IMG/VR virus record: IMGVR_UViG_3300034071_002139
Location: 1 to 31,103 of that record
From: a virus
Direction: 5' to 3' (one strand)
Length of the DNA: 31,103 nucleotides
Under the pieces are notes generated by a model. That model made no database searches, was not told where the DNA came from, and was given only the letters and a program-made list of their open reading frames with translations. This document shows positions 1-30,038 of this stretch, piece after piece. The translations under genes were made by a program, and so were the position numbers. How positions within the stretch are numbered: position 1 is the stretch's first letter; every line of letters starts with the position of its first letter.

Positions 1-1
1 G

Positions 2-532
2 GAGGCGGCGGCGGAGGGTGCTCCGGTGACACTGGCGGAGGCGGGCGGAGGCGAGCCCGGGGAAATGGCGACGGAGCCCGGAGGCGTTGAATTAGAAAAA
101 CTTATGATAGAAGAAAGCCCGGAGGGCGGGGAAAAGGTTGAAAGTGCATACAATATCCAAAGTGTATACACTTCGCCCGGCATCCAACGCGATCAAATCC
201 CGGTTTTGCAAGCGCCGGAAGTGGATCGCCATGATGAAGAAGTCGCCCGCCTAGTCCGCGATTCTTTGGAGGCATTCCGGAAAGGGCGGAGCAAAGGCCC
301 GGGCGGGCGGCGCGTGATCCCGATTCAAAAGGTGTCAGATATTACCGCACTAGACACCCTCTTTCGGCGAGCCACCCGGCAGGGCGAAAGGGCCGGGGAG
401 GCGGCCGCCCGGCCCGTCCTCAATATTCAGTTCCTTGGCGGCGTGAGTCGCGAAACTGTCAGGGCGGCAACGGATGACACTTCGCGAATTGTTGACGTAG
501 AAGGGGAGGACCTCGAAACGCGCCCGCGTTGA
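2..532 (+). CDS. Unrecognised protein, 5' end missing
   Basis: The reading frame is open from the left edge of the window (base 2) to a TGA at 530-532. A GTG at 26 is the first possible start inside the window, but the frame is open upstream of it, so the true start is probably outside. The visible part has a low-complexity Gly/Glu/Ala-rich beginning, then a charged helical stretch (around HDEEVARLVRDSLEAFRKG) and a more ordered C-terminal part containing VLNIQFLGGVS. I recognise no family. The DNA is extremely G-rich and purine-skewed, unlike the downstream phage genes, which may mean that this belongs to a host or to another module. A DNA-binding protein or small terminase subunit is possible, but no motif supports it. 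Confidence 0.5.
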   Translation, partial: EAAAEGAPVTLAEAGGGEPGEMATEPGGVELEKLMIEESPEGGEKVESAYNIQSVYTSPGIQRDQIPVLQAPEVDRHDEEVARLVRDSLEAFRKGRSKGPGGRRVIPIQKVSDITALDTLFRRATRQGERAGEAAARPVLNIQFLGGVSRETVRAATDDTSRIVDVEGEDLETRPR

Positions 533-577
533 AAACGCGTTTCCCGGGAAAGGGCCCCCATCGAAGGTGGCAGGGTG

Positions 578-645
578 GCAGGGTGGCAGGGCCGGAGGGC
601 GGGCGGAGGCGGCAGGGTGGCAGGGCCGGAGGGCGGGCGGAGGCG
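578..645. repeat. Perfect 34-bp G-rich tandem duplication
   Basis: Bases 578-611 and 612-645 are identical 34-bp units built from GGCAGGGTGGCAGGG and GGAGGGCGGGCGGAGGC segments. Partial units continue on both sides, from about 566 to 690. The run is rich in G triplets on the + strand, so it could form G-quadruplexes. It lies just after the stop of the first gene. Confidence 0.8.
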
Positions 646-769
646 CGGCAGGGCGGCGGCAGGGCGGTGGCAGGGCGGAGGGGACGGCACGGGTGGGGGT
701 CCCGATCCCGCGGCCGTCTTCATATTATATCAGCACCCTGTAAAAATTTCTCCGATTCCCGAAATCCGG

Positions 770-868
770 TTTACCCTATAACAAAATCCTTTTACCCTAT
801 AACAAAATACCCTTACCCCGGTCTCGAAATTTTTCCCGGCTCCTGAGATCCTTTTACCCTATAACAAA
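770..868. repeat. Three iteron-like copies of TTTACCCTATAACAAA
   Basis: The 16-base core is present exactly at 770-785, 791-806 and 853-868. Start-to-start distances are 21 and 62 bp, close to two and six helical turns, so all three copies face the same side of the helix. The surrounding DNA is A/T-rich. On the minus strand the core reads TTTGTTATAGGGTAAA, and a near-identical copy overlaps the promoter of the gene at 1837. Binding sites for a replication initiator or repressor are the likeliest meaning; no binding protein is identified. Confidence 0.65.
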
Positions 869-874
869 TACCAC

Positions 875-903
875 TTGCCGTCGACCCCGATCGGGGCTAG
901 TAT
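875..903 (+). promoter_or_regulatory. Promoter of the small-RNA candidate
   Basis: TTGCCG (875-880) and TAGTAT (898-903) are separated by exactly 17 bp, a sigma70-type arrangement. The -35 box lies 7 bp after the third copy of the 16-base motif, so a protein bound there could control it. Transcription would begin near 910. Confidence 0.5.
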
Positions 904-909
904 CGGTGT

Positions 910-1023
910 CTGAACCAAACCCATGTGGTGCGGTTCGGGTGGACAATGAACGAGAATCGGTCTCCCGAGTGGGAAGACCAACCCAGTAGGGGGATGCGTC
1001 CCTCTACTGGGTTTTTTGTTTTT
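910..1023 (+). ncRNA. Candidate small structured RNA (~110 nt)
   Basis: A promoter-like pair (875-903) and a very strong intrinsic terminator (980-1023) bracket about 110 nt with no good ORF. The predicted transcript can fold into three hairpins. In the first, GAACC 912-916 pairs with GGTTC 932-936, extended by TGTC 907-910 with GACA 942-945 if transcription starts slightly upstream. In the second, GGTCT near 959-963 pairs with AGACC 975-979. The third is the terminator. I do not recognise a known RNA family. Its position beside iteron-like repeats resembles antisense or copy-control RNAs of replicons, but that is analogy only. Confidence 0.5.
980..1023 (+). terminator. Strong intrinsic terminator
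   Basis: The arm at 980-993 (AACCCAGTAGGGGG) pairs with 1000-1013, a 14-bp stem with a single G-U pair and a six-base loop. It is followed by TTTTTTGTTTTT. It would stop a + strand transcript, most simply the small-RNA candidate just upstream. Confidence 0.85.
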
Positions 1024-1052
1024 ATGGCAAATGAGAAACGGGAGATCTTTTG

Positions 1053-1310
1053 AATCCTAACAAAACAACCTCCCGTTTCCTCCGGCGATCTCCCGTTTGC
1101 AAAGGCCGTCCGGAGTTACGGCACTCGGTCAATCGGATGCAGCCCTACTCCTGCTTACATCCCAGCCGACACAGGGGCTTGTTTGATCCCCGTCAATCTT
1201 GCCCTCGGGCCGGTCAAATTAGCCGCCCTCGAAAATCGGCTGGAACCTAGGTAGGAGTAGGGCAAAAGGACTTTCGGCTCTTTCGGACGGGAGGTTGCTT
1301 TGTTAGGATT
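1053..1310. repeat. 258-bp imperfect inverted repeat, MITE-like
   Basis: The outer 24 bases (1053-1076) match the reverse complement of 1287-1310 at 23 of 24 positions. Inside, 1142-1152 pairs perfectly with 1253-1263, and 1162-1169 with 1236-1243. The whole unit can fold into one long interrupted hairpin with an apical region at about 1170-1235. It has no coding potential. Length, terminal inverted repeats and lack of a gene fit a miniature inverted-repeat transposable element, but I see no clear target-site duplication. The sequence AAACGGGAG also occurs at 1036-1044 and, inverted, at 1070-1078 and 1090-1098, giving an alternative local hairpin at the left end. Confidence 0.55.
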
Positions 1311-1385
1311 AGCTTCGACGGCCCCAGCCTGCAACCCGCATGGCACCGGCGTTTAAGCGCCCTAACAGGCACACAAAATAGCGAA

Positions 1386-1665
1386 AATCAGGGAGATCTT
1401 TTTTGGTCGAAAAATGCGAAATTGGGGTTAAGTCGTTGAGACTCTAGGGGAGGGAGGAGGAACTCTAAAAAAGAAGAATACTTTTTTCCCTTCATTTATA
1501 CGACTTCGTAACTATACGGTTGCGTTATTTTGAGGGGAATTAAAGAAAAGTGAAAGTGCTCTCCCTTACTCCCGTGGCTCGCCTGATTTGCTTGATCTCA
1601 CTAAGGCTAGGGAGTAAGGGAGATCTTTTTTGACATCTCCCTGATTTTTTCGGATCTCCCTGATT
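1386..1665. repeat. Cluster of direct and inverted GGGAGATC motifs
   Basis: AATCAGGGAGATC occurs at 1386-1398. Its reverse complement is complete at 1653-1665 and present as 12 bases at 1635-1646. GGGAGATCTTTTTT occurs at 1391-1404 and again at 1618-1631. The copies at 1618 and 1635 can pair with each other and compete with the hairpin at 1560-1623. Operator sites or recombinase arm sites are possible. Confidence 0.5.
1560..1631 (+). terminator. 14-bp perfect hairpin followed by a T run
   Basis: TCTCCCTTACTCCC (1560-1573) is perfectly complementary to 1610-1623, with a 36-base loop. ATCTTTTTT follows. This has the form of an intrinsic terminator with an unusually long loop; it may instead be a regulatory or recombination structure. 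No obvious gene ends just upstream. Confidence 0.45.
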
Positions 1666-1802
1666 ATTGCAACTGACTTGCGTTAAGAGACGATTTTGAC
1701 CGACCCGCGTCAGATTTTGGTGTGTTTGTCAGGACTTTTCGTGGCTGTTGTGTTAGGGTTTTGACTGGCCCTAAAGGGCTATCTCCCGAAACGGCTTCTG
1801 CG

Positions 1803-1831
1803 TTGTCCGCTCCCGCTAATTGTTGTAGGGT
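1803..1831 (+). promoter_or_regulatory. Promoter of the exported small protein, leaderless type
   Basis: TTGTCC (1803-1808), a 17-bp spacer and TAGGGT (1826-1831) precede the ATG at 1837 by five bases. The -10 box lies within TTGTTGTAGGGTAAA (1820-1834), one base different from the minus-strand reading of the motif repeated at 770-868. The same regulator may therefore act at both places. Confidence 0.5.
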
Positions 1832-1836
1832 AAATT

Positions 1837-2148
1837 ATGCGCTCAACCCTGCTCTTTCTTGCCGCCGCTCTGTTGGTTCCTGCCGCACTGGCAGACGACG
1901 GGCTTCGCTGGTGGTCCGCTCCCTTGACCGGCTACCCACTGGCCACCGGCGTGGAGATCCAGATCGTCCCCTCGACGCCAAAGGTCACTGGGATGCCTTC
2001 GATCACCGCGCCAGCGCCGTCCGCCTTCTTTGCTCCGAAGCTGCCACCTGTCGTCGACCCTCCGCCGCAAGTCATCATCCGGCCGATCTACCTGCCTAGG
2101 ACCTACATCAGGCCCGTGACGGTATTCCGCGGAACGCGCTGCCGCTAG
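1837..2148 (+). CDS. Small exported proline-rich protein
   Basis: The 103-residue product begins with a clear signal peptide: M-R-S, a hydrophobic core of Leu and Ala to about residue 18, and a likely cleavage after A-L-A near residue 19. The mature part is about 80 residues, rich in proline with many P-x-P and I-R-P-I patterns and no obvious catalytic motif or second membrane span. The function is unknown. The ATG at 1837 is chosen because it gives a complete signal peptide and sits five bases after a -10 box. A secreted product upstream of the regulators and integrase could be a lysogenic-conversion (moron) gene or a host gene beside the element. Confidence 0.6.
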   Translation: MRSTLLFLAAALLVPAALADDGLRWWSAPLTGYPLATGVEIQIVPSTPKVTGMPSITAPAPSAFFAPKLPPVVDPPPQVIIRPIYLPRTYIRPVTVFRGTRCR

Positions 2149-2161
2149 TCGTCCCGCTTTT

Positions 2162-2239
2162 TTGATCTCCACGATAATTTGTTGTAGACAAAATACCCGA
2201 CCCCATTCATATTCACAAAATCCGACGATACAAAATCCG
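2162..2239 (+). promoter_or_regulatory. Promoter region of the MarR-like regulator
   Basis: Two arrangements fit. TTGATC (2162-2167), a 17-bp spacer and TAGACA (2185-2190) would give a leader of about 40 nt. TTCATA (2206-2211), a 17-bp spacer and TACAAA (2229-2234) lies five bases before the ATG at 2240 and would be leaderless. A direct repeat ACAAAATCCGAYGA at 2215-2228 and 2230-2243 overlaps the start and could be an operator for autoregulation. Confidence 0.35.
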
Positions 2240-2620
2240 ATGACCCTTCCAGAATTATTGACCTCCATGACCGACCTGAGTGCCGCCCTTGCGCGGTGCT
2301 CCTCCCGTCGCAGCCGCACCCTGCCTGTCCACGTTATACTCATGCTCTTGCTCGTTGCCGAGGGCAACCAACGCGGGGAGACGGTTACCGTTGCCGCGTT
2401 AGGCCGGTATCTGGGGCTGCACAACAGCAGTCTCATTGACGGGCTTGCTAGGTTGGTCGAAGCCGGTCTGGTGCAGCAGAGCCCCAAACGACCCTCCGAG
2501 GTCCACCGCGACATCACCATCACCGCTGCGGCCGTGGATCTTCTGTCTCACGCCCTTCTCACGCCCGAGCGCACCACTGTTTTCCCTGACCCACAACCCG
2601 CTGCTCAAGAAGCCGCATGA
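2240..2620 (+). CDS. MarR-like winged-helix regulator
   Basis: From the ATG at 2240 the product has 126 residues. Residues of about 30-105 follow the MarR pattern: a helical lead, an HTH (TVAALGRYLGLHNSSLIDGL), then a wing-like segment reading L-V-E-A-G-L-V-Q-Q-S-P-K with later D-I-T-I-T. This is the usual order of recognition helix and beta-wing in dimeric MarR repressors. An upstream TTG at 2162 would add 26 unlikely residues, so I prefer 2240. The stop overlaps the next start, so the two regulators are probably translated together. It is likely to control the integrase operon or its own promoter; ligand and operator are unknown. Confidence 0.6.
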   Translation: MTLPELLTSMTDLSAALARCSSRRSRTLPVHVILMLLLVAEGNQRGETVTVAALGRYLGLHNSSLIDGLARLVEAGLVQQSPKRPSEVHRDITITAAAVDLLSHALLTPERTTVFPDPQPAAQEAA

Positions 2621-2973
2621 TGAGAAGACAACAAGGAACTAAGAACCAGAGGTTTTCGTGGGAGATCTTGAATAAGGTTCTCGTGACGCTAAGAGAACAC
2701 GGCACGCTCACCACCCCGCAGTTGATCAAGACGGCAGGTCTAGCCTCGTGCTTCTCAGCCGGGAGGATCTTTCTCTACAACGAGATGCTGACCGAGTCGG
2801 GATCTCAGGAGAGGTTAGTCGCCAAGAAGGGTTCGGGAAGAGTACTCATGTGGAGCCTACGAATCGTGCCTACCGCTCGTGAGCTAGCCGAGAAGTTCGA
2901 CATGAATCCGCTATCTGAAGAGAACCACAGAAAGAATCTGGCTTGCGCGAGAACACGTCAAAGAAGACCATGA
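2617..2973 (+). CDS. Small winged-helix-like DNA-binding protein
   Basis: This 118-residue basic protein starts at the ATGATG at 2617, overlapping the stop of the MarR-like gene, and its own TGA overlaps the integrase start. Residues of about 14-80 look like a helix-turn-helix with a wing: a helix ending L-V-T-L-R-E-H-G, then TLTTPQLIKTAGL, a short hydrophobic loop and a basic strand around K-K-G-S-G-R-V-L-M-W. No family is recognised with certainty. Its place just before the integrase fits a recombination directionality factor or regulator. Codon use, with many AGA, AGG and CTA codons, differs from the neighbouring genes and suggests separate ancestry. Confidence 0.5.
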   Translation: MMRRQQGTKNQRFSWEILNKVLVTLREHGTLTTPQLIKTAGLASCFSAGRIFLYNEMLTESGSQERLVAKKGSGRVLMWSLRIVPTARELAEKFDMNPLSEENHRKNLACARTRQRRP

Positions 2974-4079
2974 GTGACCCCATCAAAACCTACCCGTCAA
3001 AGGATGGGCGCGTTGAGATCCGCTATCGGGTTGGTAGCACCCGCCACCGCGAGACGACCAAAGCCGACGTCGCTGCCACACGGGTTGTCGAGATCAGGCA
3101 ATACCTGTCCCGATGCCAGAAGCCGCTCACCCCTCGCGAGGTCGAGGAGTATCACGCCGCCGTGGCATTGCTGCCAACCGGGGTATCCTTGATCGAAATC
3201 GCCCGTCAATACGTCGCCCCGGCCAAGAGCGCCGTCACGATGCCCGACGCCATCGCCGCCTACCTCACTCATTGCCGCAGCCGGAACTTGGCCGAGCGCA
3301 CTCTCGACGACCGCAAGCAGCATCTCACTGCCTTCCGCACCTGCTCCTTCATCGAGGATGACCCGGCCAAGGTCACATGGAATGCCGTCGACCAATACCT
3401 CGGCACCTTCGAGTCTCCCAAAACGGCCAACACCCACCGGGCGACGCTCGTTTCTTTTTTCGACTATTGGTGTAAAATCTCCGGGGCGACCGTCAATCCG
3501 GCCAAGCAGGTCGAGGCACGCAAGGTGCCGGTGAAGGACCCCGTCCCCTTTACCCCGACGCAGCTTCACCGTCTCCTTGATGCGGCTTACCGACTCGAAC
3601 TCCCCGACGTCCTCCTCTTCCTCGCCCTCGGTGCTTACACCGGCGCACGGGCCAAGGAGATCGAGCGGTTGACTTGGGGCGACGTATGGAACCCGCAGCA
3701 AAGCCACCTTGTCCTTTCATCGTCGATCACCAAGACCAATCGTCGCCGCACGATCCCGCTACTCGCGCCGATGACGCAGATCATCGAGCACGCCAAACAG
3801 GCCGTCCACGCGGATCTGCTGCCTGTTGATCCGACTCGGCTCCTTGTTACCAAGCGACTGCGCCGCCGCCTGAGTAAAGTCGCCGCTGCGGCCGGGGTCG
3901 ATTGGGTTGACAATGGCCTAAGAAAAGGCTTTGTGTCAGCAGCAGTGACTCTCCACGGCACCGCCCGGGCGGCGTCGTGGGCCGGGCACAGTGAATCTGT
4001 TCTTGAATCGAACTACAAAGCCCTCGTCTCCGAGGAGGATGCGCAGGACTGGTTCTCCGTTTACCGACCCAACCCATGA
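2970..4079 (+). CDS. int: Tyrosine recombinase (phage integrase)
   Basis: The product of 369 residues has an N-terminal SAM-like core-binding domain (about 95-185) and a C-terminal catalytic domain. Visible active-site elements are Arg227 in G-A-R-A-K-E-I, Arg318 in N-G-L-R-K, His340 in A-G-H-S and the nucleophile Tyr349 in S-N-Y-K-A-L. The His of the usual H-x-x-R box is Asn315. Length is normal for phage integrases. I choose the ATG at 2970 because it overlaps the preceding TGA, giving coupled translation; an upstream ATG at 2943 would add nine residues. The segment after the tyrosine (L-V-S-E-E-D-A-Q-D-W-F-S-V) resembles Verrucomicrobiota integrases. It should carry out site-specific integration and excision; the attachment site is not identified. 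Confidence 0.88.
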   Translation: MSDPIKTYPSKDGRVEIRYRVGSTRHRETTKADVAATRVVEIRQYLSRCQKPLTPREVEEYHAAVALLPTGVSLIEIARQYVAPAKSAVTMPDAIAAYLTHCRSRNLAERTLDDRKQHLTAFRTCSFIEDDPAKVTWNAVDQYLGTFESPKTANTHRATLVSFFDYWCKISGATVNPAKQVEARKVPVKDPVPFTPTQLHRLLDAAYRLELPDVLLFLALGAYTGARAKEIERLTWGDVWNPQQSHLVLSSSITKTNRRRTIPLLAPMTQIIEHAKQAVHADLLPVDPTRLLVTKRLRRRLSKVAAAAGVDWVDNGLRKGFVSAAVTLHGTARAASWAGHSESVLESNYKALVSEEDAQDWFSVYRPNP

Positions 4080-4330
4080 AAACCTACACTCGCGACCAAA
4101 TCCACGAAATCGTTGTCGACTCGCTTTCTGAGCGCACCTCGATTCCGGTTCACATCACCGACATCCGCCTCGAAGATCTCGGCATCGACAGCGTTGAACG
4201 CACTGAAGTGATTGTCGACATCGAGGAACGCTTTGACATCGAGATCCTCGACGAGGACGCCGAGTTGTGGCAGACCCCCGACGACATCATCGATTACCTC
4301 ATCGACATCCTTGCCTCTCCCTACCTATGA
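4076..4330 (+). CDS. Acyl carrier protein
   Basis: The 84-residue acidic protein has the full ACP pattern: an N-terminal helix, then L-E-D-L-G-I-D-S-V-E with Ser39 as the predicted 4'-phosphopantetheine site, followed by helix II (E-V-I-V-D-I-E-E-R-F-D-I-E-I) and a last helix ending D-D-I-I-D-Y-L. The serine is followed by Val where Leu is most common, which the family tolerates. ACPs carry acyl chains as thioesters for fatty acid, lipid or polyketide synthesis and need a holo-ACP synthase, presumably from the host. Its ATG overlaps the integrase stop and its own stop overlaps the next start, so it is firmly within the integrase operon. An ACP in a phage gene cluster is unusual. What it acylates cannot be told from the window. 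Confidence 0.85.
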   Translation: MKTYTRDQIHEIVVDSLSERTSIPVHITDIRLEDLGIDSVERTEVIVDIEERFDIEILDEDAELWQTPDDIIDYLIDILASPYL

Positions 4331-4650
4331 ACGAAGAGGAAGGGGAAATACTGGCGGAAGCGATCAAAAAAATCAAGGATCTCAAGGCCAGTTTTCATCA
4401 GGCGATCGAGAAAGCCATCGTCTCTCAGTTGGAGATTATCGAGGGGCATGTGCCTACGGACGAGGAGATCATTCATCACGCTCGCCGGAGTGAGTCCTTC
4501 GATGCAATGGTGCATCAGATCTGGTGGAAAAACGAATTGATCGTCGACGCCCGAGTCAACATGGATTTTGAGAACGACGCAATATCTTACGAAATCCGTG
4601 TTCGCCACCTTGTTGAACTTTCTGACGAAATCTCGGTTGACCTCGACTGA
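4327..4650 (+). CDS. Unrecognised 107-aa protein coupled to the ACP gene
   Basis: It starts at the ATG at 4327, which overlaps the ACP stop codon. The product is acidic, with a long N-terminal amphipathic helix (about residues 5-40, E-I-L-A-E-A-I-K-K-I onward), a middle segment containing M-V-H-Q-I-W-W-K-N, and a C-terminal half that looks like alternating beta strands (V-D-A-R-V-N-M-D-F, I-S-Y-E-I-R-V-R). There is no membrane segment and no catalytic motif I can name. The tight coupling suggests that it works with the ACP or in the same early operon, but this is inference. Confidence 0.65.
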   Translation: MNEEEGEILAEAIKKIKDLKASFHQAIEKAIVSQLEIIEGHVPTDEEIIHHARRSESFDAMVHQIWWKNELIVDARVNMDFENDAISYEIRVRHLVELSDEISVDLD

Positions 4651-4664
4651 ATTTACTCTATAAT
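4637..4664 (+). promoter_or_regulatory. Near-consensus promoter, leaderless type
   Basis: TTGACC (4637-4642), a 16-bp spacer and a perfect TATAAT (4659-4664) lie inside the end of the 107-aa gene. The ATG at 4672 follows the -10 box by seven bases, so transcription should start at or next to the start codon. This promoter probably starts the replication operon. Confidence 0.75.
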
Positions 4665-4671
4665 TAATCCC

Positions 4672-4878
4672 ATGAGTAAAAAACCCGCAGGCCGACCCCG
4701 AGAACTGGACGCCCCCATCCAACTGAATCTCTGCGTCGAAGCCCAGACCAAGGTGCGACTGGAAGAACTGACCGATGCGGCCAAGCAGATTGACCCCAAG
4801 GCTAGCCTCAGTCGCGTTGCCTCCGCCCTGATTATTGAGAAGCACGAAGAAATTTTCGGAACCATTGAGCCTGCATGA
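4672..4878 (+). CDS. Small ribbon-helix-helix-like protein
   Basis: The product has 68 residues: a basic N-terminus (K-K-P-A-G-R-P-R), a strand-like stretch (I-Q-L-N-L-C-V), and two helices around A-Q-T-K-V-R-L-E-E-L-T-D-A-A and S-L-S-R-V-A-S-A-L-I-I-E-K. This is the order of a ribbon-helix-helix DNA-binding domain, which binds operators as dimers. It is the first gene after a strong promoter and its stop overlaps the start of the resolvase gene. It may repress its own promoter. The family assignment rests on pattern only. Confidence 0.55.
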   Translation: MSKKPAGRPRELDAPIQLNLCVEAQTKVRLEELTDAAKQIDPKASLSRVASALIIEKHEEIFGTIEPA

Positions 4879-5450
4879 CCAAGGAACGCCTCATTATCGC
4901 CATCGATCCCGGAGCCAATGGCTCCATCGTGGCTGAGTATGCCTCATCTCTTTGCCGAGAAGAGAGGGAATCCTGTCGGTTTACCACCTACCCGATTCCG
5001 GAGAAGCTGTGGGACCTCTACGAGTTGCTCCACAAAATTACGTTTGACGATGTGTTCACCAGCAATTTAGCGCCGGTCGCCTACCTCGAACACAACACCG
5101 GTTTCATGGCGGGCATCAAGCGCAAGACCGCGGACGGCGGCGAGGAAGCTGGAGGCGTTTCTCCGAAAGCGATGTATTCCTTCGGACGCAACACCGGGCA
5201 CATCGAGATGGCACTGGTCGCACTGCGCATCCCTGTCTGCCGGGTCACCCCGATCAAGTGGCAGAACGCGGCCGGGGTGACGACCGCCAAGAAAAAGTTG
5301 ATGACGCCGACTCAGTGGAAGAATCATTTGAAAGCCGCAGCGCAAGAGAGGTTCCCCAAAACCAACGTGACCCTCGCAAACGCCGACGCTCTCCTCATCC
5401 TCGACGCAGCCTGCAACCGCGGGATGAAGCACGTCGAGAATCTTTTCTGA
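4875..5450 (+). CDS. RuvC-like Holliday junction resolvase
   Basis: This 191-residue protein has an RNase H-fold nuclease pattern typical of phage RuvC-like resolvases. The first strand ends in I-A-I-D-P-G-A-N-G (Asp11), the central strand in Y-L-E (Glu72), and the C-terminal helix carries N-A-D-A-L-L-I-L-D (Asp171 and Asp177). These acidic residues would bind two metal ions and cut branched DNA. Length is near the 160-190 residues of RuvC. Its ATG overlaps the previous stop. It should resolve replication and recombination intermediates before packaging. A related RNase H-fold nuclease with another substrate is the main alternative. Confidence 0.75.
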   Translation: MTKERLIIAIDPGANGSIVAEYASSLCREERESCRFTTYPIPEKLWDLYELLHKITFDDVFTSNLAPVAYLEHNTGFMAGIKRKTADGGEEAGGVSPKAMYSFGRNTGHIEMALVALRIPVCRVTPIKWQNAAGVTTAKKKLMTPTQWKNHLKAAAQERFPKTNVTLANADALLILDAACNRGMKHVENLF

Positions 5451-5526
5451 CCCCGCCCCGTGAACTGCAACACCCCGGCGAGACGCCACCCAAAGCGCAA
5501 ATCGCCAGCACGAATCGACGTGTGAC

Positions 5527-5544
5527 CCCCGCGGACGCGCGGGG
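5527..5544. repeat. GC-rich hairpin between resolvase and P-loop gene
   Basis: CCCCGCG (5527-5533) and CGCGGGG (5538-5544) form a perfect 7-bp stem with a four-base loop, in the 124-bp gap after the resolvase gene. No T run follows, so it is not a classical intrinsic terminator. It may protect or attenuate the transcript. Confidence 0.5.
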
Positions 5545-5574
5545 CTAGGGGATTCTTTCCCGACCCTACCTGAC

Positions 5575-5928
5575 ATGAACCACCCCATCCCTACCCTCGA
5601 CCGCCTCATCATTGTCGTCGGCCCGCCACAGAGCGGGAAGACGCTCAATGCCCGGGTTATCGCCGAGCACTTCAAGTGTCCGGTTTACGACGATCTCAAC
5701 ACCCTCGCGCAGGACTACCAGTTCGAGGACTTCGTTTCCGCGGTATTGATTTGCTCCGCGCCACCGTCGGTTCAACACGGTGCTTTCGCAGAAGACTGCG
5801 GACCCCGTTTTGTCATCAAGCACGAGCGGCGCTACGTCTACGCCCGTGAGGTGCGTCTTGAATCCCCCGATCGTTTGCGCGGCAGCGTCGTCGGTTGGGT
5901 CGACCCCAAACCCATGGAGAAGCTTTGA
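5575..5928 (+). CDS. Small P-loop NTPase-like protein
   Basis: The 117-residue product has a Walker A motif at residues 16-23 (G-P-P-Q-S-G-K-T) after a hydrophobic strand (R-L-I-I-V-V), then a helix and Y-D-D-L. The beginning matches small phage nucleotide-binding proteins and kinases. There is no clear Walker B or lid, and the protein is shorter than typical nucleoside monophosphate kinases. It may be a reduced kinase-like protein or a small ATP-binding accessory factor. No promoter or ribosome binding site is evident; it lies after a hairpin in the replication cluster. Confidence 0.6.
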   Translation: MNHPIPTLDRLIIVVGPPQSGKTLNARVIAEHFKCPVYDDLNTLAQDYQFEDFVSAVLICSAPPSVQHGAFAEDCGPRFVIKHERRYVYAREVRLESPDRLRGSVVGWVDPKPMEKL

Positions 5929-5931
5929 CCG

Positions 5932-6357
5932 ATGAATTCCGAAAAACTCCCCTCCGTCTACGTCACTTACGACACTCGCCGCAAGGTGTGGGTCTTGATG
6001 TTCGACTACAAGCTCTCGTTGCCGGTAGACAAGCGGGAGCGGATCGACGTGTCGATTCCCGCGGGCTTCGAGTTTGACCTTGCCTCCATCCCCCGGCCGA
6101 TCTGGCCCCTTATTGGCAGCTTTGAGTTGTCCCTCGTCGCCCCTCTGATCCACGATTATTTCTACCAATACACTGGGCGACCGGTCTACCATCGCCGCAT
6201 CCTTGACAACCTCCCGGTTCCCGCCGGTTCGTGGCATGACGTGTCGCGGGCCGAGGCCGACAGGCTCTTTCTCTCCCTCATGCTGCGCGAAGGGGTGACC
6301 TCGTGGAAAGCTTACGCCGCCTATCGTGCCGTTCGCCTCTTCGCCCATCGCTGGTAG
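5932..6357 (+). CDS. DUF1353 family protein
   Basis: The 141-residue product shows the DUF1353 pattern: a conserved I-P-A-G-F-E-F-D-L-A-S-I-P-R segment, then A-P-L-I-H-D-Y-F-Y, then S-R-A-E-A-D-R-L-F and a C-terminal Y-R-A-V-R-L-F. Proteins of this family are common in phages and prophages and their biochemical role is not established. The conserved Asp and His residues in F-D-L-A-S and I-H-D could be catalytic or metal-binding. It begins three bases after the P-loop gene stop, so the two are probably co-translated. Length is normal for the family. Confidence 0.75.
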   Translation: MNSEKLPSVYVTYDTRRKVWVLMFDYKLSLPVDKRERIDVSIPAGFEFDLASIPRPIWPLIGSFELSLVAPLIHDYFYQYTGRPVYHRRILDNLPVPAGSWHDVSRAEADRLFLSLMLREGVTSWKAYAAYRAVRLFAHRW

Positions 6358-6360
6358 CAT
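6332..6360 (+). promoter_or_regulatory. Weak promoter before the DUF3310 gene
   Basis: TTCGCC (6332-6337), a 17-bp spacer and TAGCAT (6355-6360) precede the ATG at 6367 by six bases. The spacing matches the stronger leaderless promoters of this genome, but the -35 box is poor. Confidence 0.3.
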
Positions 6361-6366
6361 CTCCCC

Positions 6367-6795
6367 ATGAACAACACCCACGACCCCGTCAACCATCCCG
6401 AGCATTACACGTCACACCCGAGCGGCGTCGAGTGCATCGATGTCACCAGACACATGACCTTCAACATCGGGAACGTCATCAAGTATTGTTGGCGCTCGGG
6501 TTTGAAGGGCGGCAACCCAAGTGTGCAGGATCTCCGCAAAGCCGCGTGGTATCTGGAAGACGAAATCCGCCGCATCGAAAGAACCACCGATCACATCCTC
6601 AACATGGCTCCCGGTGACGGAATCAAATCGATCCTGAGTGTGAAATATCACAACGACGTCAAGTCGGAACTCGACGAGGCCGCCCGGAAGATCCACGAGG
6701 CAGTCAACGCCGTGCCGAGCGAAGCGGAGGCGCTGTGGAACCATAAAACCGGCGCTCCCTACAAGTCCTGCTACTACAATAACGCGCCCGAGTGA
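6367..6795 (+). CDS. DUF3310 family phage protein
   Basis: The N-terminal 65 residues carry the DUF3310 signature: V-N-H-P-E-H-Y, G-V-E-C-I-D-V, an F-N-I-G-N-V-I-K-Y-C-W-R stretch, G-L-K-G-G and K-A-A-W-Y-L. This domain is widespread in phages, often near replication or nucleotide metabolism genes, and its activity is not established. The C-terminal half (about 70-142) is a helical extension with no recognised motif, so the protein is longer than the minimal domain. The stop codon overlaps the GTG start of the helicase-nuclease gene. Confidence 0.8.
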   Translation: MNNTHDPVNHPEHYTSHPSGVECIDVTRHMTFNIGNVIKYCWRSGLKGGNPSVQDLRKAAWYLEDEIRRIERTTDHILNMAPGDGIKSILSVKYHNDVKSELDEAARKIHEAVNAVPSEAEALWNHKTGAPYKSCYYNNAPE

Positions 6796-9413
6796 AGACT
6801 CTCTACCCAGTCCAAGAGATTGCAGTCTCGCAGATGGAGCAGATTCTCCGGAAGCGCGGCAGCGTTTTGAACTCGTCGGACACCGGCACGGGCAAAACGC
6901 TCATGTCGGTAGAGCTTTCCCGACGTCTCAATCTCGCGCCTCTCGTCGTCTGCCCCAAGGCGGTGATCCCGTCATGGCAGCGCACCTTCGACGAGCAGGG
7001 CGTCGAGTATCTCGGTGTCATCAATTACGAGTCTTTGCGCACCGGGAACACCTTCTTTGGCTACTGGGATGGGCCGAAGCCGAAGAAAGGGAAAGAGGAT
7101 CGTCGCCCTTTTGTATACAATGAGGACATCCGCCTCATTATTTGGGATGAATCGCATCGGGCAAAAGCGGAGCGGTCGCAGAACGCACGGATGTTGCGGT
7201 GGGCCAAGGACCCGAAGCGCATGAACGTCCTTGTTTCCGCCACCGCAGCGTCTAATCCGTCCGAAATGCGGGCAGTCGGCTATCACCTCGGGCTCCACGA
7301 GTGGACCAACTTCCGCCTGTGGGCCAAGAACCACGGGTGTTCCATCGATCCATGGGACAATCTCAAGTTCACCGACTCTCCCAAACGGGCCCTTGAGTGG
7401 CTTACGGAGCTACGTCAAGAGATCTACCCCCACCTCGGTGTCAAAGTTTCCCGGGCCGACATGGCGCAGTTCTTTACCGAGAGCCAGATCATCGACGACC
7501 CCCTCGACTTTGGCGACGGAGGAAAGATCGACGAACTCTACGCCGAGGTCGAGACCTTCATGGCCGAACTCGAAGCCAAGGAAGCACTCGACGACCCTCA
7601 TCCTGCGGCCGAGGCGTTGATCGCCATGCTTCGTGCCCGCCAGCGCATCGAACTGTTGAAGGTCGCGCTGATCGTCGAAATGGCCGAGGAGGCGATCAAG
7701 GAGGGAATGCGGGTTGCCGTCTTCTTGAACTTCAACGCATCCGTCCAAGCCGTCAGTGAAAAGATGGGAGGGTGCCCGGTGATCTGGGGAACAGACCCTC
7801 TGACCCAGATGACTCAATCCTCTGCGGCCCGGCAGCAGGTCATCGACGCCTTCCAAGCCAACACCGAGCCGGTCATTGTTCTCAATATTGAGGCGGGCGG
7901 CGTTGCCATCTCCCTGCACGACGAACTTGGCGACGCACCCCGCCTTGCGCTCATCTCACCAACGTGGAATGAGAAAAGTTTGCATCAAGTGCTCGGAAGA
8001 GTTGACAGAGCCGGAGCAAAAACCAATACTGTCCAGCGCATCCTTTACGCTGCTGGCTCCGTCGAGGAGCAGGTTCGCGAATCGATGATGCGCAAGTTGG
8101 AGAATCTCCGGAATCTCCATGATTTCTCAGCCTTAACCACTGCCCCTGATCCTATGCCCCCCAAGAAAAAGGCCGAAGCTTCGGCCCCTGTTACCGTCGT
8201 CGTGGACGATTCCGTTGCCGAGGAACCGGCACACGCCCACTACTCGCCCTCGTCGCTCAAATACTTCGAGATCTGCCCCTCCTACCTCAACCGGCAGGAT
8301 GACGACAGCAATCCCGCTGCCGAGCAAGGAACCCGCATTCACCACGCTCTCGAACACGAGGACACCAGCAAACTCCACAACGAGGAGGAACACCGTCTCT
8401 ATGAGATGACGCTCGCCTGCGCTCAAGGCAACGAGGAAGCTCACGGCGTTCAAGACGCGGAACTGCTTCGCGAAATTCGACTCAAGATCGACCTGCACCA
8501 CCACACCACGTTCGGGACCCTTGACCGCCTCCGCATTGCCGGTCGCATCGCCGTCGCACAAGACTACAAATTTGGAGTCAACCCGGTTGACGACGCCGAC
8601 ATCAACGCGCAAGCGTGGACTTACTCCCTCGGCATCTTTCAGCTTTACCCCGAGGTTGAGATCATCCATTTCTATTTCCTCATTCCCAAGCAGGAGACCG
8701 TCACCCACGCCATCTTTGTTCGACACGCCGACGTCGAGCCCGAGGATTGGTGGACCGAGGAGCACTATGTCTCTGCGACGTATGATGACATCCGCCTTCG
8801 CGTGAACCTCATCATCTCCCGCTCCGAGGAAATTACCAAGATTCCGGCCGAGCATCGGGAATACAACCCGCAGGCTCACGTCTGCGAGTTCTGCGGATTC
8901 AAGGAACGGTGCAAGGCACTCAGCGATAAAGCACTCGTGATCGCTGCAAAGCTTGAGCCGGGTCTTGCTCTGCCGACCGCCGTCGACCCGGATCTCATTG
9001 ACGACCCTGCGGAACTCGGCCGACTTCGCATGACCGTCCACGTCCTTGAAGGCTGGGTTGAAGCGATGAAGAAGGCGGTCAACCGCGTTCACAAGGAGAG
9101 AGGACTCGAATGTGAGGGGTTTTCGTGGAAGACCCGCACCATCAGCCGGTCCATCACCGATCCGCTCGCGGCACTCAATGTGCTGGTCGACGAGTTCCAT
9201 TTCGACAAGAACCAATTTACCGACGCGTATTTTGATGCCGTCGGCAGCGTCTCGATCGAGAAGCTGGAAAAGGTGCTCCTTCGCCACAAGCCAGAGGGGG
9301 CCGACAAAGAAGATTTTCTGGAGGCTGCGATGAGCATTCTCCGGGAACACGAGGTCTTGACCGGAGGTGACCAAGAGATTGGCTTCTTCCAGATTGACCG
9401 AACCAAAAAATAA
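6792..9413 (+). CDS. SNF2-type helicase fused to an iron-sulfur PD-(D/E)XK nuclease
   Basis: The 873-residue protein joins two enzymes usually encoded separately. Residues of about 1-440 form an SF2/SNF2-like ATPase: Walker A S-D-T-G-T-G-K-T (29-36), D-E-S-H (119-122), V-S-A-T-A motif III and Q-V-L-G-R-V-D-R (399-406). A Pro/Ala/Lys linker at about 445-480 leads to a RecB/AddB/Cas4-like nuclease. That part has C495 in I-C-P-S, a G-T-R-I-H-H motif, an acidic D-Y-K motif at 591-593, and C698-x2-C701-x5-C707, the four-cysteine arrangement that holds a 4Fe-4S cluster. It should translocate on DNA and degrade or process ends, in recombination or replication. The GTG at 6792 overlaps the previous stop. 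A single open frame spans both halves. Confidence 0.8.
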   Translation: MKTLYPVQEIAVSQMEQILRKRGSVLNSSDTGTGKTLMSVELSRRLNLAPLVVCPKAVIPSWQRTFDEQGVEYLGVINYESLRTGNTFFGYWDGPKPKKGKEDRRPFVYNEDIRLIIWDESHRAKAERSQNARMLRWAKDPKRMNVLVSATAASNPSEMRAVGYHLGLHEWTNFRLWAKNHGCSIDPWDNLKFTDSPKRALEWLTELRQEIYPHLGVKVSRADMAQFFTESQIIDDPLDFGDGGKIDELYAEVETFMAELEAKEALDDPHPAAEALIAMLRARQRIELLKVALIVEMAEEAIKEGMRVAVFLNFNASVQAVSEKMGGCPVIWGTDPLTQMTQSSAARQQVIDAFQANTEPVIVLNIEAGGVAISLHDELGDAPRLALISPTWNEKSLHQVLGRVDRAGAKTNTVQRILYAAGSVEEQVRESMMRKLENLRNLHDFSALTTAPDPMPPKKKAEASAPVTVVVDDSVAEEPAHAHYSPSSLKYFEICPSYLNRQDDDSNPAAEQGTRIHHALEHEDTSKLHNEEEHRLYEMTLACAQGNEEAHGVQDAELLREIRLKIDLHHHTTFGTLDRLRIAGRIAVAQDYKFGVNPVDDADINAQAWTYSLGIFQLYPEVEIIHFYFLIPKQETVTHAIFVRHADVEPEDWWTEEHYVSATYDDIRLRVNLIISRSEEITKIPAEHREYNPQAHVCEFCGFKERCKALSDKALVIAAKLEPGLALPTAVDPDLIDDPAELGRLRMTVHVLEGWVEAMKKAVNRVHKERGLECEGFSWKTRTISRSITDPLAALNVLVDEFHFDKNQFTDAYFDAVGSVSIEKLEKVLLRHKPEGADKEDFLEAAMSILREHEVLTGGDQEIGFFQIDRTKK

Positions 9414-9452
9414 AACAAAACCAATACCAACTAAAAAACCAATACTACTACC

Positions 9453-10352
9453 ATGAGCAAACTCCAATTCGGAAAGCCCGCCACTGCCGCAGCCCCCAAA
9501 GCCGCTCCTGCCCCGACGCCCGTCGTCGAAGCGCAGGCAACGGTTGTGGCGGAAGCCCCCGCCCCCAAGAAGGCAACTCCTCGTGCTGCCAAGCCCGCTG
9601 AAGTCGCCCCGGTCGCCGACCCGACTCCCGCCCCGACGACCGCACTTGCGGCTCCGGCGTCGTCGGCCATCGGCATCGAAGGCGAACTCGATCAGCGCGA
9701 CATTCGCCTCCCCCGGTTCAACACCGTCAATCCTACCTCGAAGCTCTGCACCGAGCAGGATTTCCCTGCCGGAGCCATCGTCTTCGAGAAGGAAGTCACA
9801 CTTTTCGAGAAAGGTGCCGATCAACTCGACACCGTCGTTCTTCGCCTCAAGAAGGTTTTCCAACAGAAGCTCCCCTTCGACAGCGAGGAGCGCCCGCAGG
9901 TTTTTGACAGCAGCGCCGAGGTCGAAGCCAACGGCGGCACGATCAAATACTCCAAGGAAGCGGAGGAAGATGGTCGCTTCTACCAGAGCGTCGCTCACAT
10001 CGTTCTCGCTGTCCGTGCCCCCAATGACCTTCCCGCCGAGGAAGTCTACCGTTTCTCTTACGAGCACGGCGGAGCCAACTGGGCGGTCGGTGTCATTACC
10101 GTCGCGGGATCGAGCTACACGTCCTTCGCCGTTCCGGTCATCAACAAGGCGTATGGCGCTCTCAAGGCCACAGGTCTTGCTGGCGGTCTCTGGGGCGTCA
10201 GCACCGAAAAGCGCAGTAACGACAAGAACACTTGGTATGTCCCGGTGGCGAAGTTCGCCAGTGTCTTGACCGACGCTGACGACCTCGCGTTCTTCCGTGA
10301 TCTCGCCTCGGTTTACAGTCTCGATCTCAACGCACACTCCGAAGAAGAGTAA
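9453..10352 (+). CDS. Probable ssDNA-binding or recombination accessory protein
   Basis: The 299-residue product has a low-complexity Ala/Pro/Lys-rich N-terminal arm (about 8-75) and a folded domain from about 80 to 290. The domain has alternating strands (R-D-I-R-L-P-R-F, V-V-L-R-L-K-K-V, N-T-W-Y-V-P-V-A) and an acidic tail ending S-E-E-E. An acidic tail is typical of ssDNA-binding proteins that recruit partners. In many phages a RecB-like nuclease gene is followed by such a protein and then by the polymerase, as here. I do not recognise the family from sequence, so the call rests on order and tail. It is followed by a strong terminator. No ribosome binding site is visible. Confidence 0.45.
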   Translation: MSKLQFGKPATAAAPKAAPAPTPVVEAQATVVAEAPAPKKATPRAAKPAEVAPVADPTPAPTTALAAPASSAIGIEGELDQRDIRLPRFNTVNPTSKLCTEQDFPAGAIVFEKEVTLFEKGADQLDTVVLRLKKVFQQKLPFDSEERPQVFDSSAEVEANGGTIKYSKEAEEDGRFYQSVAHIVLAVRAPNDLPAEEVYRFSYEHGGANWAVGVITVAGSSYTSFAVPVINKAYGALKATGLAGGLWGVSTEKRSNDKNTWYVPVAKFASVLTDADDLAFFRDLASVYSLDLNAHSEEE

Positions 10353-10370
10353 TCTTTCCGAGTGCCTCAC

Positions 10371-10401
10371 GGGGGAGTGTCGAAAGGCGCTCCCCCTTTT
10401 T
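10371..10401 (+). terminator. Intrinsic terminator after the ssDNA-binding candidate
   Basis: GGGGGAG (10371-10377) pairs with CTCCCCC (10390-10396), and T run 10397-10401 follows. It lies 18 bases after the stop codon and should close the 4.67-10.35 kb operon, or reduce readthrough into the polymerase gene. Confidence 0.85.
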
Positions 10402-10431
10402 CGGCTCCACTGAAGTAACCACACCTTGACC

Positions 10432-12282
10432 ATGCACCCGAAAACCGCCGCCGTTGACTTCGAGACCTTTTACCAGAAATCCCGCTACTCCACCCAGATC
10501 CAAGGGCCTCGCGGGTATGTCGACCATCCTGAGTTCGACGCCTACATGGTGTCCATTGCCACCTCCGACGGGGGTGAATTTGTTGGGCACCCTTCCGAAT
10601 TTGATTTTCACGACCTCGACGGATACGCGTGGCTCTCGCACAACCGCGGGTTTGATTTCCTCGTCTACCAGAAACTCCTTGCGACCGGGAAGACCACCGG
10701 CCCGAAGGACCCCGAGTGGCATTGCACCGCCGACCTCGCCGCCTATCTCGGCTACCCCCGCGCCCTCGCACAGGTTCTCGCTATGCTTTACGGAGTCTCT
10801 CTCGACAAGGGAGTGCGAGACCGCATGAGCGGGCAGAAGTGGGAGTCCATGTCGCCGCAGGAGCAGGAAGATGTTCGTAACTACGCCATGGAGGACGTGC
10901 GCTACCTCAACCGATTCTGGCAGGACTACGGCCCGATCTGGCCCGAGCACGAGCGCCGCATCTCGGATCTGACGCTGCGAATGAAGAACGCCGGTCTTCC
11001 GATCGACGATGCCAAGCTCGACCAGTCTATCAAGACGCTCCGGCAGAAGTTGTTCGATCTTGAAGAAGCAATCCCATGGTTTGATCGCAGCAATCCCAAG
11101 GAGAAAGCGAAAACCCCCCTCTCACCCAAAGCGATGGCCGAGGAGTGTTTGAAGATCGGACTCCCGGTGCCCTCTTCGCGGGCGAAGGCAAGTGCCGCTG
11201 CACAGGCGTGGCTCGAAGAATACGGAGATCAGGCTCCTTTTGTTCGCGCGATGGGTGAATGGAACTCCGTCAACTCTCTCCTTCAAAAGCTCACCACCCT
11301 GCGTGAGCGAATCATCTTCCCCGAGGAGGACGACTTTGCCTACCAGCACCTCCCCGCGGAATTGCGAAACGGGCAGACTGCGTGGTGTCCCTACGGGCTC
11401 AAATACTTCGGAGCGCACACCGGGCGCGACTCTGGCGGGGAGGGCTTGAACGTACTTAACATGCACCGTGGCTCGGTAGCCGGAATCGATTTCCGTAGCC
11501 ACATCGTCGCCCCGGCTGGATTCAAGTTTGTTTCGGCCGATTACTCGCAGATCGAACCGCGGGTGCTCGCTTGGTTGGCCGAAGATGACGCGTTCCTCGA
11601 TGCTGTTCGTTCCGGAATCGACCCCTACGTCGCTTTCGGGATACACACCCTCGGGCATCTAGGAGACTGGAACAAGCAGGACCGGCAGGTCTGGAAGATG
11701 ATGGTTCTCTCGCTCGGATACCAAGCCGGGGGCGAGAAGTTCCAAGGAGCGGCAAAGTCGATGGGCGGTCTCGAACTGACTCTCGAAGAGGCGAAGGATC
11801 TTGTTCGTCTCTACCGTCGCAAGAACAAGAAAGTCGCTGATCGGACCAAGGGCTTTTGGGCACTCATGGAAAACGAGCTTCGGAGGCAGAGCAAGACAGC
11901 AGGAGGCTCGGGCACGGCAACGGTGACCCTTCCGTCTGAGCGCACCATTACCTATCGAAATGTGGTAGGGCGGAGCAACTTGACCGCTGATCTTGCAACC
12001 GAGGCAGGGTATCGAAAGTCCCATATTTACGGGGGTTTGGCGACAGAAAACGTAGTGCAGGCATGTAGCCGGGACATCTTCTTCGATGGATACCTTGGAA
12101 TCGCCGCTGCTGGGCTCTCCGTGGTCCTCCGCATCTACGACGAATTTCTAATCCTCGTGCGAGAGGAGGAAGCGGAAAACGCAAGACACATCACCGAGCA
12201 GATTATGGGAACCCCGCCCGAGTGGGCTGCGGATCTCCCGGTCGCCGCGGAAGCAGAAATTATCGACATCTACACCAAATGA
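10432..12282 (+). CDS. DNA polymerase, family A, with 3'-5' exonuclease domain
   Basis: The 616-residue product has an N-terminal proofreading domain: ExoI V-D-F-E-T (D9, E11), ExoII around L-S-H-N-R-G-F-D-F, and ExoIII Y-A-M-E-D. The polymerase domain follows: motif A A-D-Y-S-Q-I-E-P-R (D370, E375), motif B R418-Q-V-W-K422-M-M and motif C I-Y-D-E (568-571). There is no 5'-3' exonuclease domain, as usual in phage enzymes. Motif C has Tyr where most family members have His. I choose the ATG at 10432; a TTG two codons earlier is also possible. It replicates the phage genome with the primase-helicase encoded next to it, whose start overlaps this stop. Confidence 0.9.
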   Translation: MHPKTAAVDFETFYQKSRYSTQIQGPRGYVDHPEFDAYMVSIATSDGGEFVGHPSEFDFHDLDGYAWLSHNRGFDFLVYQKLLATGKTTGPKDPEWHCTADLAAYLGYPRALAQVLAMLYGVSLDKGVRDRMSGQKWESMSPQEQEDVRNYAMEDVRYLNRFWQDYGPIWPEHERRISDLTLRMKNAGLPIDDAKLDQSIKTLRQKLFDLEEAIPWFDRSNPKEKAKTPLSPKAMAEECLKIGLPVPSSRAKASAAAQAWLEEYGDQAPFVRAMGEWNSVNSLLQKLTTLRERIIFPEEDDFAYQHLPAELRNGQTAWCPYGLKYFGAHTGRDSGGEGLNVLNMHRGSVAGIDFRSHIVAPAGFKFVSADYSQIEPRVLAWLAEDDAFLDAVRSGIDPYVAFGIHTLGHLGDWNKQDRQVWKMMVLSLGYQAGGEKFQGAAKSMGGLELTLEEAKDLVRLYRRKNKKVADRTKGFWALMENELRRQSKTAGGSGTATVTLPSERTITYRNVVGRSNLTADLATEAGYRKSHIYGGLATENVVQACSRDIFFDGYLGIAAAGLSVVLRIYDEFLILVREEEAENARHITEQIMGTPPEWAADLPVAAEAEIIDIYTK

Positions 12283-14480: not shown

Positions 14481-15013
14481 GCTACTTCAATCTCCCCAAG
14501 CAATACCCGGGCATGTATCACTTCAATGAAGAGACGCGGCTTTGGGTGCCTATTAAAGCCAAGGCAAAGAAACACCCACTTTGCCAAGTAGCTTTTTGCT
14601 CTCGACCGTCTGAGAAAGCCGCGAAGATCGGACGCAGTCTTCTTTGCGTGACTTGTCGGGTTCGCATGTGGAGGGCCAACAACCCCATCCGGGCAATCTA
14701 CAATGCGGTCAAGAACAAAGCACGGCGGCGGCGCATCCCCTTTGATCTGGACTTCGCCGTCTTCGAGCAGCTTTGCCACGAGACCGACTACCACGCCCGC
14801 CGGGGGAGATCGGTGAAGCATCTGCACATTGATCGCATTGACGCACTTCGGGGCTATCACAACGATAACGTGCAGATCTTGACCGCGGAAGACAACATCG
14901 ATAAAGGTCACCACGAAGAGACAAGGAGCCGCTACGAGTGGGAGGAGTATTGTGCCGGAGCCGAGGACCCTTCCGCAGCATGTGACAATCCCGCCGACGG
15001 CGATCCGTTTTGA
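14477..15013 (+). CDS. HNH endonuclease with zinc ribbon
   Basis: The 178-residue protein has a four-cysteine zinc ribbon (C36, C41, C57, C60), a basic helical segment (N-A-V-K-N-K-A-R-R-R-R) and an HNH core with H-I-D-R-I-D, G-Y-H-N-D-N-V-Q and a final D-N-I-D-K-G. HNH enzymes use a beta-beta-alpha metal fold to nick or cut DNA. It lies immediately upstream of the large terminase, a place where HNH proteins assist DNA packaging in many phages. A free-standing homing nuclease is the alternative. The start overlaps the stop of the primase-helicase. The C-terminal tail contains the promoter for the terminase gene. Confidence 0.8.
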   Translation: MSYFNLPKQYPGMYHFNEETRLWVPIKAKAKKHPLCQVAFCSRPSEKAAKIGRSLLCVTCRVRMWRANNPIRAIYNAVKNKARRRRIPFDLDFAVFEQLCHETDYHARRGRSVKHLHIDRIDALRGYHNDNVQILTAEDNIDKGHHEETRSRYEWEEYCAGAEDPSAACDNPADGDPF

Positions 15014-15038
15014 CTGGGGCAAGGAAGCGGGGTAAACT
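15010..15038 (+). promoter_or_regulatory. Promoter of the packaging genes, leaderless type
   Basis: TTGACT (15010-15015), a 17-bp spacer and TAAACT (15033-15038) precede the GTG start at 15045 by six bases. It begins inside the last codons of the HNH gene. This is the likely late promoter for terminase and the head genes. Confidence 0.7.
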
Positions 15039-15044
15039 CCCGTA

Positions 15045-16848: not shown

Positions 16849-16854
16849 TTACCC

Positions 16855-20240: not shown

Positions 20241-20246
20241 TTTTTT

Positions 20247-28623: not shown

Positions 28624-29133
28624 ATGGTAGCCCCTTCCGCTTTTGTTGACCCGTCTTGTTATCTCTCTGAGGACGCCACGGTGTGGCACTTCGCAGTGGT
28701 GCTTGCCGACGTGACTGTTTTACGAAACACGGTCATCGGCTCTCGGGTCGAAGTGGGGCGAGGGTCCTTTATTGGACAAGACTCTCGCATTGGTTCTGGC
28801 ACTTTTCTTCCCGCGAACAGCACGATCGGGTCGAGGGTGTTCATCGGGCCAAATGTCACGTTCACCGATGATCGACATCCGGTTGCAGGCAACGCTGGCT
28901 ACTACGCGGAGCCTCCAATCGTCGAAAATGATGTTTCGATCGGGGCGGGAGCGGTGATTCTTCCGGGCGTTCGTATCGGCGTGGGAGCCCGCATCGGTGC
29001 CGGAGCGATCGTTACGCGGGATGTCCCTCCCGGGGCTCTGGTGCGCAGCGAACCCGCTCGTCAGCGGGGCGAGGGAGGATGTCCACCAGAACTATTGGCC
29101 GCGGCCGAGAAAGTCGGAATTACGAAAGCATGA
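28624..29133 (+). CDS. Hexapeptide-repeat acetyltransferase
   Basis: The 169-residue product is a left-handed beta-helix protein of the WbbJ/LbetaH type. Repeated hexads with Ile, Val or Leu every sixth residue run through residues of about 20-145 ([36 protein letters not shown]). An F-T-D-D-R-H-P loop near residue 80 is typical of sugar N-acetyltransferases. Such enzymes act as trimers and transfer acetyl from acetyl-CoA to amino sugars. It is translationally coupled to a glycosyltransferase, so it probably modifies a sugar for virion or host surface decoration. An acyl-ACP donor, as for LpxA relatives, is possible but unsupported. Confidence 0.8.
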
Positions 29134-30038
29134 AAATCTCTGCCACCATCATCTGCAAGAACGAGCAGGACCATATCCTCGATTGCGTAGGATCTCTACA
29201 TGACGTAGACGAAATCATCGTGTGCGATACGGGGTCTACCGACGACACTCTTTTGCTCGTGAACAGTCTCAACGATGATCGCATCCGTTTAGCTTACTAC
29301 GAATGGGGGGATCACTTCGCCAACGCTCGCAATGCCGCTCTCGCCCTCGCCACTGGTGATTGGTGTGTCGTCATCGACGCTGACGAAGAACTCGCTCCGG
29401 GAGCTATCGCGGCTCTCCGAAAAGCGATTCGAGAAAAACCAACGGCCCAGACTTTTCGTTTTAAGTGCATCGCCAAGCACAGCCCAAACAACATCCACGA
29501 AATGGTCCGAGCGCACCGCAGATGCCCGGACATCTACTGGACGGGGCGGATTCACGAAGCACTCAATCGAGATGACCATGTTCCTGCCCACGGGGCAACA
29601 CTGCTCTACGGGTATTCGACCGCACACGCAAACGACCCTGACCGGGCTCTTCGGCTACTCCAAATGGATTTTGAAGAGCAGTCGGCTACCTCGGCGGGGC
29701 CCTCGGGCCGAACGCTGTATTACCTCGCTCGCGAGTGGTATTACCGGAGAGACTGGGCTAAAGCGGCGGAGTTGTTTGAGGCCCGGGCTCACTTTGTCGG
29801 GTATCGCGACGAGTGCGGGGACGCTTTGCTTTACTTGGCCCGCTGCTACTGGCAGCTTCAAGAGGGGGATCTCGCGAGGATTGCCGCGGTGAAATCGCTC
29901 ATCATGGTGCCCGATTGTCGGGAGACCTATCTGTTTCTCGCAGAAATGAGCTTTCCAGAGCAAGCGGCGGCGTGGACGCGTATCGCCGATGGAGCACAAA
30001 ATACGGGGGTCTTGTTCGTGAGATCTCCAGTTGCGTAG
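29130..30038 (+). CDS. Family 2 glycosyltransferase with helical C-terminal repeats
   Basis: From the ATG at 29130, which overlaps the acetyltransferase stop, the product has 302 residues. The N-terminal GT-A fold shows [28 protein letters not shown] and D-A-D-E-E (the metal-binding DxD). Residues of about 180-290 form TPR-like helical pairs ([20 protein letters not shown]). This pairing occurs in GT2 enzymes that glycosylate proteins or peptides. It has no membrane segment and should act in the cytoplasm. A longer frame from 29079 is rejected because it overlaps the previous gene by 55 bases. A likely target is a virion protein such as the fibre. Confidence 0.85.

Follow-up and report, generated by a model that had tools for sequence, protein, structure and literature searches.

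Genes for acyl carrier proteins (ACPs) recur across many unrelated phages. Erythrobacter phage vB_EliS_R6L (gp32; PMC5463345), Alteromonas phage R22Y (gp30; PMC11705849) and Vibrio phage R16F (ORF117; PMC10152775) each carry a lone ACP, the function of which is called unclear by the authors. Rhodobacteraceae prophages bear acpP, three of them with fab partners (fabG-acpP-fabF; PMC8224337), and the cyanophages P-HM1 and P-HM2 encode ACPS in addition to an ACP (PMC3037559). A cellular parallel is AcpB of E. faecalis, a divergent second ACP with ~30% identity to the canonical one and a role in FabT repression (PMC6509188). Redirection of host lipid metabolism by the phage ACP is the usual guess in the literature. 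Lone phage ACPs are already known. The one described here brings by itself no new principle.

The ACP gene was found in a 31,103-base IMG/VR virus record, the whole of which is called the window (Table 1). Profile, sequence and predicted fold allow a safe identification of its product as an ACP of the PP-binding family in which the phosphopantetheine serine is intact. The Pfam PF00550 (PP-binding) score is 36.1 bits (E=7.7e-9), above the curated cut-off of 20.8, which places the protein inside the family. It also matches PHROG 5934, "acyl carrier protein", over profile positions 15-88 of 93 (E=2.7e-10; PHROGs carry no curated cut-offs), and its top PDB match by sequence is the Aquifex ACP 2ehs (E=2.7e-9). 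The protein is acidic, with 23 D/E against 6 K/R residues and a pI of 4.05, and is 32-38% identical to the E. coli, B. subtilis and Aquifex ACPs. The helix II acids of these three proteins are largely kept; D35, D38, E41, E47 and E48 of E. coli ACP correspond to D38, E41, E44, E50 and E51 of the window ACP. Loop 1 is one residue longer than in the same three ACPs, and residue 40 is V where L is usual. Residue 41, an E in the window ACP, is S in the closest relative (described below), which indicates that helix II is not constrained over its whole surface.

The NCBIfam ACP models match the protein (best E=3.4e-12), every one under its own family cut-off. Orthology with AcpP was ruled out by the equivalog model TIGR00517, against which the score is 44.2 versus a cut-off of 70.45 bits, and no fab genes adjoin. 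Likewise, the score against TIGR01688 (DltC, the D-alanyl carrier) is 23.8 bits versus a cut-off of 52.35, outside DltC.

An AlphaFold2 model, computed with 33 phage ACPs as input, has a mean pLDDT of 85.8 and a pTM of 0.74. It consists of helices at residues 6-18, 32-35, 39-53, 59-62 and 68-80, with Ser39 opening helix II. Foldseek matched the model with a probability of 1.00 to ACP structures, including an ACP bound to AcpS, and a TM score of ~0.8 to PDB ACPs indicates the four-helix ACP fold. Ser39 is invariant across the 33 aligned phage ACPs, the search pattern having partly selected for serine, and the serine is present in 62 of the 63 distinct ACP ORFs of an IMG/VR survey in which one of two search patterns required it. 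Together, the Pfam, PHROG and PDB matches and the predicted fold bear out what an earlier note on this DNA had read from the letters, namely an ACP pattern with Ser39 in D-L-G-I-D-S-V and an acidic helix II.

Table 1. Positions of the ACP gene and of other features in the window
Feature	Position	Strand	Evidence
Integrase of the tyrosine recombinase type; its stop codon overlaps the ACP start codon	2970..4079	+	PF00589 1.6e-8; phrog_1 1.4e-29
ACP gene; 84-aa product with Ser39 within DLGIDSV	4076..4330	+	profile, sequence, predicted fold, dN/dS 0.20 versus relative
Ser39 codon, predicted 4'-phosphopantetheine attachment site	4190..4192	+	position in translation; alignment of 33 phage ACPs
ORF X, 107 aa, conserved; start overlaps ACP stop by ATGA	4327..4650	+	49% identity with L001:6255-6599 of relative, dN/dS 0.38
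Hexapeptide (left-handed beta helix) acyltransferase-like protein	28624..29133	+	PDB WxcM-like 4mzu E=2.1e-21; NCBIfam NeuD/PglB/VioB 2.5e-22, below cut-off
Family 2 glycosyltransferase (GT2), overlaps hexapeptide gene	29079..30038	+	phrog_13126 6.3e-44; PDB GmaR, SunS matches

The sole close relative located is a 49,946-base IMG/VR contig, IMGVR_UViG_3300035670_000314. Its ACP is 82% identical to that of the window and retains the serine (DSL at the site), so that the residue is kept in the related phage as well. Comparison of the two sequences indicates that the ACP gene is under purifying selection: the differences fall 8/11/26 by codon position, and the NG86 dN/dS is 0.20 for the ACP and 0.23 for the integrase. 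A chance ORF at 4076-4330 was ruled out by the profile score and the codon-position pattern. When the window ACP and its relative were placed in a tree together with ACPs of Verrucomicrobiota and of other phages, built on few columns and with poor resolution, the branch leading to the two measured 2.71 changes per column. The pair is thus a strongly diverged lineage and not a recent host copy. Recent capture of a host ACP was rejected since, in a comparison with the ACPs found in 145 Verrucomicrobiota genomes, identity reached no more than ~35-43% and the branch is long, if poorly resolved. Window positions 1-9605 and 28735-31033 align with the relative, and 9605-28735 is absent from it; the overlap between them is like that of pieces from a single genome of ~69 kb, circular or permuted. 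The scanned ORFs of the relative's contig (L009-L011, members not distinguished) include a PIF1-like helicase, an intein with a LAGLIDADG domain and an N-acetylmuramoyl-L-alanine amidase.

Searches elsewhere returned little. No INPHARED phage record matched the window ACP by tblastn at E<0.01. The PLSDB plasmids gave no close relative and one distant Xanthomonas match. A two-row alignment of the ACP, run against the GTDB genomes, found no close relative; this type of scan relies on few peptide patterns, and distant relatives can escape it. The integrase query against GTDB gave no close relative and one distant match, a Verrucomicrobiaceae MAG without an ACP beside its integrase. In IMG/VR, the ACP, the integrase, the RuvC-like protein, ORF X and the helicase, each used as a query, recovered the same single contig. 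Of 289 genomes in the MAG's phylum, the sole phylum scanned, 46 carry distant relatives of the window integrase, a count that does not identify the host.

The ACP gene is tightly packed between its neighbors. The start codon at 4076 shares bases with the integrase stop at 4077-4079, and the stop codon at 4328-4330 with the ATG of ORF X at 4327, both as ATGA. The overlaps reported in the earlier note are therefore confirmed. They belong to a run of five ORFs from 2162 to 4650 linked by 4-nt overlaps (the first start is uncertain). The neighborhood consists of the integrase, ORF X, RHH-like and RuvC-like genes and is not one of fab genes. 4-nt overlaps are found at 10 of the 28 gene junctions examined in the window. 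In the relative (locus L001), the integrase ends at 5565 and the ACP starts at 6001, with a 143-aa ORF in the space between them, and it is the stop of this ORF, not that of the integrase, that has the ATGA overlap with the ACP start.

Eighty IMG/VR loci with ACP relatives were surveyed; many of the records are fragments, so the absence of an integrase is weak evidence. PF00589 was found in nine of the records, the relative included, at distances of 0.6 to 42 kb, and in none of the nine does the integrase directly adjoin the ACP. The integrase and ACP domains are 580 nt apart in the relative and 1.2 to 42 kb apart in the other eight. At one of the surveyed loci, L041 (record G031), a 45-kb contig, a lone ACP is preceded on its own strand by an integrase 1.6 kb upstream, with fab genes absent among the near neighbors of the ACP. 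Thus the integrase-ACP pair is adjacent in the window only, and the role in an integration operon that the earlier note had proposed is not upheld: because of the intervening ORF in the relative, the common 4-nt overlaps and the lack of adjacency in the survey, a functional link is unsupported. The overlap appears to reflect tight gene packing in one operon, with no link to integration. The survey also contained, at L088 (4992-5228, in a contig of 133 kb), a phage ACP-like protein that has Glu in place of the serine (LHADELD) and may not act as a carrier, and two fusions (L028, 2758-3933, and L058, 4995-6173) with an N-terminal ACP domain in a phage protein of 391-392 aa.

A promoter-like element, TTGACC-16-TATAAT (11/12), is present at 4637-4664 and is conserved in the relative. 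It divides the integrase-ACP-ORF X run from the downstream genes and ends 7 nt upstream of the ATG at 4672 of the RHH-like gene; a transcript from it could be leaderless. A Shine-Dalgarno-like motif is found upstream of only 2 of the 28 gene starts examined (window 26-31084).

ORF X follows the ACP with an ATGA overlap in both the window and the relative. It diverges much faster than the ACP (49% versus 82% identity; dN/dS 0.38 versus 0.20). Its predicted structure is a long helix and a beta sheet, at low confidence. No family match was found in Pfam or PHROG and no fold match worth naming was obtained with this low-confidence model as the query; no homologue beyond the relative was found in IMG/VR.

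The window carries no recognizable dedicated partners for the ACP. A ketosynthase, reductase, acyl-ACP ligase, thioesterase or phosphopantetheinyl transferase was not found by Pfam in the scanned ORFs of the window and the relative, the scan covering ORFs from ~70 aa upwards except one 2787-aa ORF of the relative. Other lone phage ACPs likewise come without phosphopantetheinyl transferase or fatty-acid synthesis genes. The sole acyl-transfer candidate found in the window contig is the hexapeptide gene, ~24 kb from the ACP. The statement in the earlier note that no transferase lies beside the ACP holds locally, but this acyltransferase-like gene occurs in the same contig. The hexapeptide gene comes after a collagen-like tail fibre gene and overlaps the GT2 gene; the two genes (28624-30038) form a possible tail-fibre or surface glycan module. 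Window positions 28735-31033 align with the end of the relative's contig, and the module is at least partly common to both ACP phages. The closest matches of the hexapeptide product are WxcM-like and sugar N-acetyltransferase-type proteins, which use acetyl-CoA. The ACP-dependent LpxA and LpxD families of NCBIfam are matched with partial coverage, far under their cut-offs.

The window gene probably encodes an auxiliary PP-binding ACP, which the phage carries as a moron, a small accessory gene, and which would shift acyl flow or signals. As expected of the family, the host holo-ACP synthase (AcpS) would put phosphopantetheine on Ser39 and the host type II fatty acid synthase would load the protein with acyl groups. 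The extra ACP would then shift acyl flow, or acyl-ACP signals, in the infected or lysogenic cell, a guess common to the literature. However, given the long branch and the score below the equivalog cut-off, the window ACP may not interact with the host FAS enzymes at all.

The alternatives carry less weight: first comes a decoy or regulator, next a dedicated acyl donor, then a structural partner, and last a link to integration. The protein might not be a productive donor at all; its apo- or acyl-form might bind partners of the host ACP such as SpoT, AcpS or acyl-ACP sensing repressors and so alter the stringent response, CoA use or fatty-acid regulation. The retained acidic face of helix II, which binds partners and makes the E. 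coli ACP-SpoT contact (PMC3340395), the strong divergence from FAS ACPs and the example of E. faecalis AcpB, which works mainly via regulation (PMC6509188), all speak for such a role. It is nevertheless unlikely, as the data indicate no single partner and the intact Ser39 would be superfluous for a pure decoy. Quite unlikely is a role as dedicated acyl donor to the hexapeptide acyltransferase, which together with the GT2 would make an acylated sugar on the tail fibre or on the surface of the host. The overlap of the hexapeptide and GT2 genes just after the tail fibre gene, the presence of at least part of this module in both phages and the LpxA and LpxD matches agree with it. The low weight given to this reading is due to the use of acetyl-CoA by the closest relatives of the hexapeptide protein; in addition the Lpx matches are poor, the two genes are far apart, and a ketosynthase or acyl-ACP ligase that could supply a special acyl group was not found in the scanned ORFs. 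Less probable still is that the ACP, the acyltransferase and the GT2 let the phage use host acyl groups to build an acylated glycan, either on its tail fibre or on the host surface.

Mitochondrial ACP acts as a structural subunit, and mitochondrial examples are among the PDB matches of the window ACP model. The window ACP could similarly serve another phage protein as a small, acidic partner in assembly. One example would be ORF X, which follows it in both phages and has no homologue found elsewhere. Such a role is very unlikely, ranking below carriage of an acyl group to the acyltransferase and above the acylated glycan, since ORF X diverges far faster than the ACP, its model is of low confidence and matches nothing, and 4-nt overlaps are common in the window. 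Least probable, and hardly to be expected, is that ACP and integrase act jointly and tie integration or lysogeny to acyl supply. The ATGA overlap in the window and the nearness of the two genes in the relative and in L041/G031 fit such a link, but the nearest relative has its adjacency broken by the 143-aa ORF, which takes the overlap instead; 71 of the 80 records, many of them fragments, are without PF00589 and the other eight positives have it at a distance; and the similar integrase of the Verrucomicrobiaceae MAG has no ACP beside it.

The preferred reading, an auxiliary accessory ACP, can be set against the described systems. Like the members of PHROG 5934 (moron, auxiliary metabolic gene), the window ACP is a small lone phage ACP with the same motif and length, and it differs by its long branch and by the lack of a tblastn match in INPHARED. 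R6L, R22Y and R16F also have a single ACP, the absence of adjoining fatty-acid synthesis genes having been checked for R6L; their hosts differ, and unlike the window, R6L has no integrase annotated in the stretch examined. The Rhodobacteraceae prophages share with the window an ACP in a temperate phage or prophage, but three have fab partner genes, of which none was found in the window. P-HM1 and P-HM2 likewise have a phage-borne ACP, but with a synthetase of their own, again not found in the window. The fold, the serine site and the acidic helix II are common to the window ACP and the bacterial AcpP of type II FAS, from which the window ACP is set apart by its sub-equivalog score, its longer loop 1 and its lack of fab neighbors. 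By description it resembles E. faecalis AcpB, a divergent auxiliary ACP beside the canonical one in the cell; AcpB is a cellular gene with a shown role in FabT repression, whereas the window ACP is phage-borne. The diverged pair, with its serine kept and under selection, is a useful test of phage ACPs as acyl donors, regulators or structural partners. The window ACP is a diverged new case of the lone phage ACPs, a kind already reported.
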